Shown piece by piece: positions 29,637 to 62,019 of a DNA stretch of 64,000 nucleotides. The DNA lies in NCBI GenBank assembly GCA_017656295.1, contig JACDOC010000003.1, positions 62,001 through 126,000 on the forward strand. The letters run 5' to 3'. The translations under genes were made by a program, and so were the position numbers. Below the pieces are notes generated by a model that did not search any database, was not told where the DNA came from, and was given only the letters and a program-made list of their open reading frames with translations. The DNA comes from Bacillus sp. (in: firmicutes). Lineage in GTDB: Bacteria > Bacillota > Bacilli > Bacillales > JACDOC01. Each line of letters opens with the position of its first letter. The first letter of the stretch is position 1.

Positions 29637-30008
29637 TGTGAAACGTTCCTTTCTGTCCTTTTATATTTTCTTTATCATGAAAGAACATACCATGCCCATT
29701 TTACAATATCAAGTATTATGCTGGATTTTACGTAAGTTGAAAGCGCGTTCATTTTTTTCTTACTTGCTGAAAAAACGTTACCTTCTAGCAATAATGCTAC
29801 AAGGAGTACTGGAACTAGGAACGATTTTTATTCCGCACCAAAAACATTGTAGAAAAATTCCCTATCAATAAATCATCGTTCTTTTGTTTTTTACGTTCCC
29901 TTTATTTTTTAAAATTATGATGATTTTATAAGATTTTTTGATTTCATTATAATCCTTCTTTATCTACAGTTTAGGATCGTTAAAAGGGGAAGAGATAAGC
30001 TGGAATTA
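29637..30008. other. Intergenic region upstream of gndA, no supported gene
   Basis: This AT-rich gap holds the gndA promoter region. A plus-strand ORF of about 65 codons from 29677 (ending at 29871) has no ribosome site and no recognisable family. It is basic and leucine-rich, so I do not call it a gene. It marks the border of the AT-rich block that follows. Confidence 0.4.
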
Positions 30009-30575
30009 CTAGTCGGATTGGCAGCCGTATAATTTGATCAATTTATCTTTTGACATAAATAAATATTTTGGTGGTCTCCTAAAACTGTCTAAACGGTATA
30101 TAGAAATAAGATACATAGGAACAATTGTCATTTGTTTGTACCATTTATAAAAAGGATTAATGATGGAAAACGTTTCAAATCCTAATCGCTCACTACCTTT
30201 ATTTAAAACCGTGATTCCGATAATCCCCTTAATATTGGCAAATTGTTCATGACGTTGTAAATATATTGCAAGGTTCGGCAACCCTCTTTTTACTTGTTCA
30301 TAGATAAGTCTCCCCTTTTTAATTTCACTATTCAAACGAGTGAGTTCGTTAACTAAACGAATGTTATACAAATGAATTTTTATAAGGAGATCATTTTTGG
30401 TGATATGTGTACCATCAGAGAGCATGATGTCTCTTCCTTTATACTTCGTCAGCCGAACCCGAAAAATATCTCGATTTTTTGATTTGTCCTGAACGTATTC
30501 AAGCCGTGAACAAAAATAATAAATCGGATCTAATACACTCCAAATGGCAAGAAAACATTGTTTCATCTTTACCAT
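30009..30575 (-). CDS. YkoP-like protein, unknown function
   Basis: A 188-residue protein with no catalytic motif I recognise. It begins MKQCFLAIWSVLDPIYYFCS after a short lead, has DGTHITKNDLLIKIHLYNIR near residue 55 and FANIKGIIGITVLNKGSERL near 120, and ends in a basic stretch. The pattern agrees with the Bacillus YkoP family as I recall it, which occurs beside glycosyltransferase-like genes. It is divergent from the glycosyltransferase at 30732. The coding region is richer in AT than its neighbours in the window. The start could also be the ATG at 30566. Confidence 0.6.
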   Translation of the reverse strand: MVKMKQCFLAIWSVLDPIYYFCSRLEYVQDKSKNRDIFRVRLTKYKGRDIMLSDGTHITKNDLLIKIHLYNIRLVNELTRLNSEIKKGRLIYEQVKRGLPNLAIYLQRHEQFANIKGIIGITVLNKGSERLGFETFSIINPFYKWYKQMTIVPMYLISIYRLDSFRRPPKYLFMSKDKLIKLYGCQSD

Positions 30576-30731
30576 TACAACACCCTTCTCCTTTTCTTCC
30601 TTTCATTATATTAAAGTGTTTAGCACTCAAGGTCGTTTTATTAATAGAAAAAAAAGGATTTGGCTTATCGAATAACTATCCAAAAATGACAAACACTTTT
30701 TAATAACTATATCTATTTTAGGTGAGTATTT
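30576..30731. promoter_or_regulatory. Divergent intergenic region of the YkoP/glycosyltransferase pair
   Basis: A 156-base, very AT-rich spacer between two divergent genes that must hold both promoters. No high-confidence -35/-10 pair was identified. Confidence 0.35.
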
Positions 30732-31838
30732 ATGAAAAGGGTTCTTTTTCTTCCATTACTACAATTTCCATCCGGTCATCATCAAACGGCAGATGCCTTA
30801 AAAGAGGGATTACTTCTACTTGATCCTCATATACAATGCGAAAAAATTGAATTATTATCATCAAGATTCGGAAAGATGGAATCTTTTATTTCACAATTTT
30901 ATCTACAATGGATTGATCGATTTCCAAAAACTTACAGCTTATTGTACCGTCAATCGCTGTTTAGCGAATTGAGTAAAACGAAAACGTTTCCACATTATGA
31001 GGTTCTATTTCTTAATCATTTAAAAAAGTTGATTTCTGAAACAAACCCGAATGTAATTATATGTACTCATGCGCTACCTTCCTATTTACTAAGCAGATTG
31101 AAAGCAGTCGGTGAATTAAAGATACCAGTCATTAATGTATATACAGACTACTTTATTCATCAGCTTTGGGGGACTGAGGAAATTGACTATCATTTTGTTA
31201 GCCATCCGTATATGAAGGAATTTTTACAGAAAAAAGGGGTTCATAAAAGCCGCATTTTTGTAACTGGAATTCCCATTCACCCGAAAATAACGAAAAACAC
31301 AAATAATCATCGATACACAAAAAAAACGTACTGTGGCTTAATCTCCGGGGGAAGCTTAGGGGTCGGGGCTTTAGCAAAACTACTCGAAAAAATCCCTATA
31401 GATGACCAAATAAATTATTACGTACTATGTGGTAAAAATAGATGTATATATGAACAATTGATCCATATGAATCATCCAAAAATTACACCTTTTCCTTACA
31501 TCTCTTCTCGTGAAGAGATGAATAAATTATATAATCAAGTTGATTTCATTATTACAAAACCAGGCGGAGTAACCGTTAGTGAATGCTTATTTAAAAAGCT
31601 CCCTATTTTTGTTTACCATGCTCTACCCGGTCAGGAAGAAATTAATCTTCAGCAATTAAAAGAATTAGGAATTGTTTTTGATTTTCAAGAGTGGTATCAG
31701 ATGGAGAACATTTCAGAACAGCTAATCCACATCCTACATTCAGAGCATTTATCCAATTATTTTTCAAAACTTGATGAGTATCACAGAAACTTATCTCCAG
31801 TTGAACCAGCAAAATTTATTTATCATTTAGTCAAGTAA
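30732..31838 (+). CDS. Glycosyltransferase, MGDG-synthase/UgtP-like (GT28)
   Basis: A 368-residue glycosyltransferase of the GT-B fold, GT28 family. The N-terminal half is MGDG-synthase-like (LLQFPSGHHQTADALKEGLL at 8-27). The C-terminal half has the nucleotide-sugar site: LISGGSLGVGALAKLLEK near 203, and ITKPGGVTVSECLFKKLPIF near 275, which resembles the UgtP and MurG UDP-sugar loop. Relatives transfer glucose or galactose to diacylglycerol. Membrane or lipid substrate is therefore likely, but the exact one is unknown. ATG at 30732 follows AGGTGA. Same AT-rich block as YkoP-like. Confidence 0.82.
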   Translation: MKRVLFLPLLQFPSGHHQTADALKEGLLLLDPHIQCEKIELLSSRFGKMESFISQFYLQWIDRFPKTYSLLYRQSLFSELSKTKTFPHYEVLFLNHLKKLISETNPNVIICTHALPSYLLSRLKAVGELKIPVINVYTDYFIHQLWGTEEIDYHFVSHPYMKEFLQKKGVHKSRIFVTGIPIHPKITKNTNNHRYTKKTYCGLISGGSLGVGALAKLLEKIPIDDQINYYVLCGKNRCIYEQLIHMNHPKITPFPYISSREEMNKLYNQVDFIITKPGGVTVSECLFKKLPIFVYHALPGQEEINLQQLKELGIVFDFQEWYQMENISEQLIHILHSEHLSNYFSKLDEYHRNLSPVEPAKFIYHLVK

Positions 31839-32144
31839 GACAAAAACACAATAAACATTTGTTTAGCACTTCATGTTCCAATGTACCTTATGTAATATGA
31901 GGACCCGTGCAATTTTAGCATTTGTCTTGATTTGTAAAAAGGGGAGAGGCTAACAGGTACAGCAGTATCTCGCCCTTTTTTCATATGTAGCGATTTGATC
32001 CTACTTTTTTAGTTATATAACTGATTTAACAAGAAAATCAATTCTCCTGCCATCTTACTTAAAGTCATCATTAATAAAAATATTTTTGAAATTGCATACA
32101 AATATATGACAATAACGCAAATGAACTTAGAGGAGAGAAGCAGC
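31839..32144. other. Intergenic region with terminator
   Basis: The gap between the glycosyltransferase and the EEP gene. A hairpin terminator lies at 31936-31981. The remaining sequence is AT-rich with no further supported feature. Confidence 0.5.
31936..31981 (+). terminator. Terminator after the glycosyltransferase
   Basis: AAAAAGGGGAGA pairs with TCTCGCCCTTTTT with one bulged G and a loop of about 18 bases; the right arm itself is T-rich. Confidence 0.65.
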
Positions 32145-32873
32145 TTGGAAATTAAGGTTATGACTTTTAATATTCATCATGGCAAAGGTATGGATCTTAA
32201 AGTAGATCTAAATAGAATCGCTGAAGTGATTGAAAAAAGTAATGCCCATATTATTGGTCTTAACGAGGTGGATAAACATTTTTCCAAGCGGAGTTATTTT
32301 GAGGACCAAATTAGCTGGCTTGCCAAACAATTAAACATGAACTATGCTTTTAGCCCTTCCCTTTCCTTAAAACCTAAAACTATGTCAAAAGTGCGACAAT
32401 ATGGAAATGCCTTGTTGTCCCGATATCCTATTGTTGCAAAAAGCAGCTATTTGTTTGATTTGATATCTGGAGTCATTGAAGGAAGATCTTTGCTTGAAGC
32501 AACGATTCAAATTAACAATCAGCTGGTTTTGGTTAATGTTACTCACCTAAGTATTAACCCCTATCTTCACAAAAAGCAGACGGATTTTATTTTAAATAGG
32601 CTCAGCAACTATTCTTATCCTTTTATTATCATGGGGGACTGGAATATGATGCCTGGATCAAGAGGATGGAGAAAAATGACGCGTGAAACTCAAGATGCTT
32701 GGTATATAGCCGGTATAGGAGCAGGACATACTTATCCTTCCCTTCATCCAAGAGTTAGGTTAGACTACATATTTGTTAGCCACCATTTTCAAGTCATTAA
32801 AGCAGAAATCTTCACTAAAACACCAAATGCTTCCGACCATTTACCATTAAAAGCAACACTGAATTACCACTGA
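32145..32873 (+). CDS. Endonuclease/exonuclease/phosphatase (EEP) family protein
   Basis: A 242-residue EEP-fold phosphoesterase. The start is probably the TTG at 32145, right after GAGGAGAGAAG; the ORF opens at 32106 but without a ribosome site. Catalytic motifs are complete: TFNIHHGKG near the N-terminus, the metal-binding Glu in IIGLNEVDKHF, GDWNMMPGS near residue 165, and the catalytic SDHLPLKA at the C-terminus. The family includes sphingomyelinases, phosphoinositide phosphatases and DNases; short members with this layout are often metal-dependent phosphatases. It has no signal peptide. Part of the AT-rich four-gene block. Confidence 0.82.
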   Translation: MEIKVMTFNIHHGKGMDLKVDLNRIAEVIEKSNAHIIGLNEVDKHFSKRSYFEDQISWLAKQLNMNYAFSPSLSLKPKTMSKVRQYGNALLSRYPIVAKSSYLFDLISGVIEGRSLLEATIQINNQLVLVNVTHLSINPYLHKKQTDFILNRLSNYSYPFIIMGDWNMMPGSRGWRKMTRETQDAWYIAGIGAGHTYPSLHPRVRLDYIFVSHHFQVIKAEIFTKTPNASDHLPLKATLNYH

Positions 32874-32900
32874 AAAGAAACATATTTCCATTTTAAAAAT

Positions 32901-32929
32901 AACACCTTGTAATCGAGGTGTTATTTTTT
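32901..32929 (+). terminator. Terminator between EEP and phosphodiesterase genes
   Basis: AACACCT and AGGTGTT form a stem with loop TGTAATCG, followed by ATTTTTT. It lies between convergent genes. Confidence 0.8.
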
Positions 32930-32964
32930 GGATATTCGTGATTATATTTGTATTGTCATCAACC

Positions 32965-34446
32965 TCAATCAAGAAGTGTTAAAATCCAATCTTTTAAGTC
33001 AATAATGCGTAAATGTCTTGGGGACAAGTTAGTACCAGTTACAATCATCGATACTAGTGAGTCTTGTTTATGAAGTCCACCATGGCTTGCTCCTCCCACA
33101 TGAGTCGGGGAACCTTCACCGATAAATTCAAATCCTGGTTTGGCACTTACAACAAGATAATTTCCTTCATGAGAAGTGAGCGAGCTGTACAATCGGGCCA
33201 GTGCATCCGGATATTCATCATAAATAATCTTATTGTTCTTAACGGTAAGATTCAAAATTCCTAAATCTCCTTCTATATCCCACGATTGTTCATACTCATC
33301 AACCAATGTTCCATTTGGTTTAAAAATGAATTTTCCCTGTTGAACTCCAGATATAACGTGAACAGATTCTTTTTCCTTCCAAGCAATGACATCAACTCTT
33401 TCGTCCATTTGTAACGTTTTCGCGAGATCCGATAGTGGCGCATGTTCAGGATTTAATGTATAAATAAAGGCCATTCGTTCATTAACACCGAGAACAACTT
33501 CGTCCCTATCTTTAACCCCATCTTTTAATGTCATTATTTGATAAGAACGAAGGGATTGTCTTAAATCAATTAAGGCTTTGTTCCGATCAGAATCAATTGG
33601 CGCTTGACCGTTATCACCAATGATAATCCAATAATTATCTTTTAAAGCTTCCTCCCAAGAATCATAACAATCCAATACGTTTTGCAGCTGTTTGTCTACT
33701 TTGTGAATTCCCTTTATATCCATAGGACCATTTTTATGGATAATTTTATCCATATCTGGAAAATAAACAATGGTAAAAGAAGGTAGAGAATCCGTTTTAA
33801 TAAGGTATTTTAACTCTTGGGCAGAAAAGCGATCATTAAACCCACATTTTTGCCAAAAGTATCCATATCTTTTCAAAGGACTGAGCTTAGAAAAGGAGCC
33901 ATATGTAAACAGTTGGCTTCCTTTTGTCTTCAACTCATGATTCAAAGATGTAAAAATTGTTAGTAACCTTGGCAATTTTAAATTATGCTCTGTATTACCA
34001 CGATAAATGAGAGCATTAATCGAAGCGGTTATTTTTCCTCTACTAGACAATTCTTCATGGATTGTTTTAATTTCTTTGTTTAAATGCTGATTGTTTATAT
34101 TATATAAAATGTCCTTCATTGATTGGGTGATGCCAAGCTTGATAAGTTCCCTTATATGACTTCCGTAATTAATTAGCCGCTTTTCTTTATCATGAAACCA
34201 TACTAACCCAGGAATCTTATGAATATTCGCATTCGTACCCGTTAGCAGTGAACTGTCTACAGTTACAGACATCGTCGGAAAAGGGCTCACGATATTTGGA
34301 AATACCCTTCCATTATCCATAAAAAATTTAAATGCAGGAGCTGACCCCTCTTTTACTGCCTTTTCTAGAGGCGGATACATTAAAGTATCAATAATCAGCA
34401 TAATAACGCGTTTCTTGTTTGCAGATGTTGACACGATTTGATCCAT
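32965..34446 (-). CDS. Alkaline-phosphatase-superfamily protein (type I phosphodiesterase-like)
   Basis: A 493-residue metal-dependent phosphoesterase. The N-terminal metal and nucleophile site is MLIIDTLMYPPLEKA plus FPTMSVTVDSSLLTGTNANI near residues 16 and 58, where the Thr or Ser after P is the likely nucleophile. YFPDMDKIIHKNG near 228 holds further metal ligands. The usual D-H-G at the second metal site reads IIGDNGQAP near 275, so a His is replaced by Asn. A late SPTHVGGASHGGLHKQDSLV near 460 gives the last His. The family hydrolyses nucleotide or phospholipid diesters; substrate unknown. It is divergent from CheW-like and belongs to the AT-rich block. Confidence 0.78.
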   Translation of the reverse strand: MDQIVSTSANKKRVIMLIIDTLMYPPLEKAVKEGSAPAFKFFMDNGRVFPNIVSPFPTMSVTVDSSLLTGTNANIHKIPGLVWFHDKEKRLINYGSHIRELIKLGITQSMKDILYNINNQHLNKEIKTIHEELSSRGKITASINALIYRGNTEHNLKLPRLLTIFTSLNHELKTKGSQLFTYGSFSKLSPLKRYGYFWQKCGFNDRFSAQELKYLIKTDSLPSFTIVYFPDMDKIIHKNGPMDIKGIHKVDKQLQNVLDCYDSWEEALKDNYWIIIGDNGQAPIDSDRNKALIDLRQSLRSYQIMTLKDGVKDRDEVVLGVNERMAFIYTLNPEHAPLSDLAKTLQMDERVDVIAWKEKESVHVISGVQQGKFIFKPNGTLVDEYEQSWDIEGDLGILNLTVKNNKIIYDEYPDALARLYSSLTSHEGNYLVVSAKPGFEFIGEGSPTHVGGASHGGLHKQDSLVSMIVTGTNLSPRHLRIIDLKDWILTLLD

Positions 34447-61901: not shown

Positions 61902-62019
61902 ATAAAAACCCTTTACCATTCTCTTGGTATAAATTGAACAGGAATGCAGCGGTTTTTCATTGTCCATGATGGGTTCTATAAGGATACAATCCTGAAATAA
62001 TCATTTTCCATAATCATAC

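Follow-up and report, generated by a model that had tools for sequence, protein, structure and literature searches.

A YkoP, glycosyltransferase, and phosphohydrolase gene block as a candidate glycolipid module of Bacillaceae

The window analyzed here is a 64,000-nucleotide stretch of DNA (positions 62,001 to 126,000 of contig JACDOC010000003.1, assembly GCA_017656295.1) from a Bacillus sp. with an Anoxybacillus-like genome. At positions 30009 to 34446 it carries a block of four genes encoding a YkoP-domain protein (YkoP), a glycosyltransferase (GT) of the YkoN type, an EEP-fold hydrolase (EEP), and a phosphodiesterase (PDE). We propose, giving it about an even chance, that this block is a version of a conserved and often reshuffled Bacillaceae module for the synthesis and turnover of a glycosylated membrane lipid; the lipid role is suggested by the families of the genes and by the company they keep. 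The four open reading frames lie where an original prediction placed them, and the families that it assigned to them were all recovered, each with a Pfam match above the curated cut-off. The features are as follows.

30009 to 30575, minus strand: YkoP-domain protein, 188 amino acids (PF22790)
30576 to 30731, no strand: divergent YkoP/GT intergenic region, 156 bp, a conserved spacer
30732 to 31838, plus strand: MGDG-synthase-type (GT28-like) glycosyltransferase of the YkoN type, 368 amino acids (PF06925)
32106 to 32873, plus strand: EEP-fold hydrolase, 255 amino acids (PF03372)
32965 to 34446, minus strand: NPP/ENPP-like phosphodiesterase of the alkaline phosphatase superfamily, 493 amino acids (PF01663)

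Association of the families across genomes

A PDE profile scan of a collection of species genomes yielded 393 relatives, and the best 80, which come from many genera, were examined with up to 7 kb on each side. Within this distance YkoP is present at 37 of the 80 PDE loci, EEP at 36, a YkoN-type GT at 29, and a YkoQ-like metallophosphoesterase at 28. All four families of the window stand together at 19 loci, and their recurrence across several genera speaks strongly for a module. Among the 34 loci with at least three of the five families, 22 distinct orders and orientations are found; families that keep company while their order is shuffled point to functional linkage more than to common descent, and the arrangement is not simple inherited synteny.

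Since the 80 loci had been picked by PDE similarity, a second test was made on 61 whole genomes of relatives chosen by kinship only, in which PDE occurs in 19, YkoP in 20, the YkoN-type GT in 25, and EEP in 12. In Fisher tests, the p values of which ignore the relatedness of the genomes, YkoP co-occurs with the GT (p = 1.3e-6; adjacent in 14 of the 20 YkoP genomes) and PDE co-occurs with EEP (p = 1.9e-6), and the co-occurrence of PDE with YkoP is weak (p = 0.03). The module is composed of two tight pairs, YkoP-GT and PDE-EEP, which are often merged and accompanied by a YkoQ-like gene, and it is not one fixed operon.

The strongest new clue to a glycolipid role is the fusion of YkoP to a deacetylase outside Bacillaceae. 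In a set of 299 genomes from across the phylum, YkoP was found in 44, and open frames of 400 to 530 amino acids account for approximately half of the matches. All five of the long frames examined encode an N-terminal polysaccharide deacetylase (PF01522) fused to YkoP; the deacetylase carries the TFDDGPD motif, and an N-terminal hydrophobic segment is present in the one fusion examined for it. Twenty YkoP loci, mostly selected for long frames, were then taken with their flanks: 16 contain the fusion, and in 2 more the deacetylase and YkoP are encoded side by side. The fusion is directly adjoined by an LtaA-type (glycolipid flippase) MFS protein at 8 of these 20 loci, in several Bacillota, and by an MGDG-type GT at 3. 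The two LtaA-type neighbors tested match the model over their full length (E of approximately 1e-58) at scores below the equivalog cut-off. On a Thermomicrobium plasmid, the genes for the deacetylase, two GTs, and YkoP are consecutive, in the order deacetylase-GT-GT-YkoP. A literature search found no paper tying the YkoP family or domain to polysaccharide deacetylase.

The genes surrounding PDE were also surveyed in the 80 loci. A YegS-type diacylglycerol (DAG) kinase is present at 12, whereas a density of four copies per 3.1 Mb would predict approximately 1.5, and PlsC (6 loci), VTT-domain proteins (7 loci), PAP2 (3 loci), and a second, non-YkoN MGDG-type GT (8 loci) are found as well; these surroundings point to lipids. 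The common membrane-lipid or phospho-sugar role put forward in the original prediction is thus supported by the co-occurrence and the deacetylase fusions, and the lipid-gene neighbors agree with it, but the genes form two pairs with a YkoQ-like companion and not one operon, and their lipid function is putative. A zinc alcohol dehydrogenase (14 loci) and a class II aldolase-domain protein (12 loci) are further neighbors of PDE. The YegS-type DAG kinase, PlsC, the dehydrogenase, and the aldolase-domain protein recur as a set beside PDE/EEP (loci L060, L062, L066, L087, L092, L095, L097, L107, L113, L116, and L127), which is possibly a second version of the pathway.

In the window, YkoP and the GT are divergent, EEP runs in the same direction as the GT, and PDE faces both; the neighbors of the block are gndA and yqjE, and according to the original prediction Bacillus subtilis would have yqjG/yqjH here. 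The closest PDE relatives are those of Anoxybacillus (87 to 90% identity), and in three Anoxybacillus relatives (L051, L052, and L053) the block occupies the same chromosomal place, adjoining yqjE and CheW. The YkoP/GT spacer is highly conserved among four Anoxybacillus-type loci and likely holds both promoters. Half of a CIRCE-like site, TTAGCACTC, lies inside this generally conserved spacer, probably by chance.

The YkoQ-like gene directly follows YkoP in L051 and L053 and is absent from L052 and from the window (positions 29637 to 30008), where no remnant of it was found between gndA and YkoP and the edges still align with those of the relatives. A YkoQ-like gene is present elsewhere in the genome (G000:C7:4678-10373, locus L139), with Ku approximately 2 kb and LigD 3 kb away, and is 60% identical to the L053 copy adjoining YkoP. 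In Bacillus velezensis, YkoP itself directly adjoins LigD-Ku. It is possible that these Ku/LigD surroundings of the YkoQ-like gene and YkoP represent a forespore neighborhood. A record of 807 kb that is labeled a B. velezensis plasmid (NZ_CP083716.1, positions 165187 to 181723, L188) carries ykoP, ligD, ku, and sigI; given these chromosomal-looking genes, it may instead be a chromosome that was split or misfiled.

Properties of the four proteins

The GT matches PF06925 over its entire length (positions 1 to 169 of 169, E = 6e-32, 111.5 bits), and its SGH, KPGG, and PGQE motifs are invariant or nearly so. Its closest solved relative is a processive diacylglycerol beta-glucosyltransferase (9wde, E = 4e-30). 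The possibility that this GT is the UgtP diglucosyl-DAG synthase of the genome was rejected, as it scores 142.4 bits against the UgtP equivalog model with its cut-off of 500 and a separate UgtP-like MGDG-type gene is found in the same genome (G000:C23).

YkoP matches PF22790 over the whole domain (positions 1 to 183 of 183, E = 5e-61, 205.5 bits against a cut-off of 27) and has no transmembrane segment. Searches of the PDB by sequence, with the single sequence or a profile, gave no meaningful match, and the low-threshold Pfam matches of 42 YkoP proteins are chance-like. The AlphaFold model (mean confidence score pLDDT = 88) resembles, in essentially all of its top 50 structural matches, GNAT proteins, and the matches are weak (Foldseek E = 0.05; best Z-scores 8.2 with the toxin 7byy and 7.2 with the acyltransferase 4mfz). 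One of these matches is an acyltransferase whose structure was determined with decanoyl-CoA and teicoplanin. As judged by eye from the alignment and secondary structure, the acyl-CoA pyrophosphate loop (Q/RxxGxG/A) after β-4 is absent; strand 63-69 is followed by HLYNIRL, in which His68, His or Tyr at position 70, and Asn71 are conserved and which has no glycine-rich loop. The likeness of the model to GNAT acyltransferases may serve as a lead only.

EEP matches PF03372 (E = 2e-21) and also the model of the EEP-like C-terminal region of PGAP2IP (E = 2.5e-11). Asn22, Glu54, His147, Asp178, Asn180, Asp220, Asp244, and His245 are invariant among 23 homologs, and by such motif comparisons the catalytic residues of both the GT and EEP are intact. 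No signal peptide or transmembrane segment was found in EEP. In two of the close Anoxybacillus relatives only fragments of EEP are present (L051:8559-8801 and L052:8645-8797), with PDE, GT, and YkoP intact.

PDE matches PF01663 (E = 4e-16), and its model (pLDDT = 93) takes an NPP fold, the closest solved structures being ENPP5, ENPP6, a bacterial NPP, and ENPP7 (Z-scores of approximately 28 to 30; for ENPP5, Z-score = 30.4, 342 residues, root mean square deviation = 2.9). Several of these enzymes act on lipid-type phosphodiesters. The conserved residues Asp20, Thr58, Asp233, His237, Asp278, and His455 correspond, by sequence motif, to the nucleophilic threonine and five metal ligands. The sixth of the Asp/His metal ligands of NPPs, the histidine next to Asp278, is replaced by Asn in 51 and by Ser in 28 of the 80 aligned sequences. 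A second PDE gene in the genome (G000:C5:105994-107427, locus L138; 48% identical) stands alone and has a normal GC content of 41.5%. Some relatives carry three PDE copies, and one has a PDE pseudogene in two frames with stops (G011:C1:1040743-1042163).

A convincing hydrophobic segment is absent from all four proteins of the block, so that they all, PDE included, probably act in the cytosol.

Proposed pathway and alternative explanations

In the glycolipid module that we propose, the YkoN-type GT would work at the cytosolic face of the membrane, where it would use a UDP-sugar to attach a hexose or N-acetylhexosamine to a membrane lipid, as its family suggests, and YkoP, which is associated with the GT, would be its partner on this glycolipid. 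In its fusions to a deacetylase, YkoP may help to convert an N-acetylglucosamine (GlcNAc) lipid to a glucosamine (GlcN) lipid, whereas the YkoP of Bacillaceae would be a separate accessory protein. PDE, EEP, and the YkoQ-like phosphoesterase of relatives would hydrolyze phosphodiesters of the same pathway, the candidate substrates being the phospholipid acceptor, glycerophospho-sugar head groups, and products of the UDP-sugar. The title of a 2007 paper by Matsuura links YkoN of B. subtilis to "a new phospholipid." In spore formers, the natural site of the module may be the membrane of the developing spore, as one study lists ykoN of B. subtilis as transcribed by sigma-G and includes it among the disruption hits selected for delayed sporulation, with seven of the eight chosen mutants confirmed (PMC4703394).

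A number of observations weigh against this proposal. PDE and the YkoN-type GT are linked only locally; across the 61 genomes they co-occur not beyond chance (p = 0.34). EEP is degraded in L051 and L052, and the module can thus lose it. The EEP and PDE families are promiscuous folds, which sugar, nucleotide, or phosphonate substrates fit too. With a profile built from the fusions, no deacetylase was found in the 80 Bacillaceae-type PDE neighborhoods. As for the spore, spoIVA is present in all 61 comparison genomes, and the distribution of the genes is uninformative on such a link; upstream of the GT, YkoP, and YkoQ-like genes, the best matches to the sigma-G consensus score no higher than those in shuffled sequence. 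Upstream of PDE there is a slight excess over shuffled sequence, which is too small to settle the matter.

The main rival is that two separate pairs share the space, with YkoP-GT acting on a glycolipid of the spore or envelope and PDE-EEP serving to salvage phosphodiesters in the cytosol, an unrelated task, and that they are brought together by a common regulator or by regions tolerant of insertion. We consider this possible, at distinctly less than even chances. It fits the strong associations within the pairs in the 61 genomes and the weak ones between them (GT-EEP, p = 0.35, in addition to the PDE-GT value), as well as the occurrence of PDE and EEP without YkoP or the GT. On the other hand, the pairs meet repeatedly in varied orders and reach the full set of four at nearly a quarter of the PDE loci, and the non-YkoN MGDG-type GT, DAG kinase, and PlsC found repeatedly beside PDE suggest that it has a lipid link of its own.

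A role in phosphate or iron stress, in which the phosphohydrolases free phosphate while the GT swaps phospholipids for glycolipids as in phosphate-starved bacteria, is unlikely. In relatives, a glycolipid-type GT does keep company with a number of phosphodiesterases and with PlsC, PAP2, and DAG kinase, and B. subtilis ykoP is reported to be controlled by Fur (through an uncertain site), ResD, NsrR, and Kre (PMC6212828), but the cytosolic appearance of the four proteins is unlike that of secreted starvation phosphatases, and the reported sigma-G dependence of B. subtilis ykoN also speaks against it.

We also considered that YkoP is a cryptic GNAT-fold N-acyltransferase, which would re-acylate a membrane glycolipid after the GT has added GlcNAc and a deacetylase, fused to YkoP or its partner, has exposed the amine. 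This idea is speculative and rather improbable; if it were true, the system would apply to a membrane lipid the GT-deacetylase-acyltransferase logic of NodC-NodB-NodA or of teicoplanin, the NPP, EEP, and YkoQ hydrolases would clear phosphodiester by-products, and spore formers would gain an unrecorded acyl-glycolipid.

The base composition of the block bears on a last alternative. As the original prediction stated, the block is richer in AT than its neighbors, the GC content being 32 to 37% over approximately 29.5 to 34.5 kb and approximately 41 to 43% on both flanks, so that the equal GC content named there as a refutation is not observed; codon usage, which it had proposed to compare as well, does not set the genes apart. 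Ranked within a reference set of 340 genes, drawn from 403 kb of this genome, the genes of the block, in the order of the feature list, lie at the 3rd, 5th, 18th, and 12th percentiles for GC, and at ordinary values for GC at third codon positions (GC3; 34th, 11th, 54th, and 18th) and for codon likelihood (60th, 40th, 15th, and 46th). The flanks exceed the mean GC content of the genome (38.4%), and comparable AT-rich runs of four genes occur in two further sampled stretches. The AT-richness is real but local and results largely from amino acid composition and intergenic DNA. Because GC3 and codon usage are ordinary, the flanks lie above the mean, and similar runs occur elsewhere, it is not evidence of transfer, and codon usage lends no support to a horizontally acquired island (GC3 between the 11th and 54th and codon likelihood between the 15th and 60th percentiles). 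That the block is a foreign island, recently acquired and made up of unrelated genes that share no role, is very unlikely: the GC content below both flanks and a gene order that varies in almost every genus would suit it, but codon usage is normal for the genome, the nearest Anoxybacillus relatives have the block at the same chromosomal place, and clusters of these families are found in many genera of differing GC content.

Comparison with known systems

The nearest counterpart is the ykoN-ykoP-ykoQ region of B. subtilis, which we take to lie near ykoU/ykoV (LigD-Ku). The MGDG-type GT, YkoP, and metallophosphoesterase families are common to both systems, whereas the window adds EEP and the NPP-like PDE, lacks a ykoQ-like gene at this spot, and has its block beside gndA/yqjE. 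The GT of the block shares its Pfam family and motifs with UgtP/YpfP but falls well short of the equivalog cut-off, and the genome has its separate MGDG-type gene. PDE shares with ENPPs and bacterial NPPs the whole-chain fold, the nucleophilic threonine, and five of six metal ligands; it differs from them in its low identity (approximately 12 to 17%), in the replacement of the sixth ligand His by Asn or Ser, in its probably cytosolic location, and in its longer chain.

GlcN-phosphatidylglycerol (GlcN-PG) has been known from Bacillus megaterium since the 1960s. Both YkoN and YkoP are proteins of the model spore former B. subtilis, and the GT-YkoP-hydrolase module, together with the YkoP-deacetylase fusions next to glycolipid-type flippases, offers a concrete gene set for lipidomics on the glucosaminyl phospholipids of Bacillus. 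Biosynthetic genes for such lipids had been assigned in no bacterium before the work on Pseudomonas (PMC12713373), in which GpgSDF of Pseudomonas aeruginosa was identified as the GlcN-PG pathway. The likeness to GpgSDF lies in the sequence of steps, in which a sugar is attached to a membrane lipid and the product is then deacetylated and flipped, whereas GpgS (GT4) and GpgD (COG3233) belong to families other than those found here.

HexSDF of Clostridioides difficile produces an aminohexosyl glycolipid with an MGDG-type GT, a deacetylase, and a flippase (PMC10128005). At the family level, the window has a GT of the glycolipid type that HexSDF and GpgSDF share; it is not of the HexSDF kind, since no deacetylase and no linked flippase are among the genes of the block, which has YkoP, EEP, and PDE instead. 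The combination of HexSDF is matched by the YkoP-deacetylase loci outside Bacillaceae that have an LtaA-like flippase or a GT, with the difference that HexF is MprF-like and the protein beside the YkoP fusions is an LtaA-like MFS protein. The block of the window may act alongside HexSDF-like chemistry.

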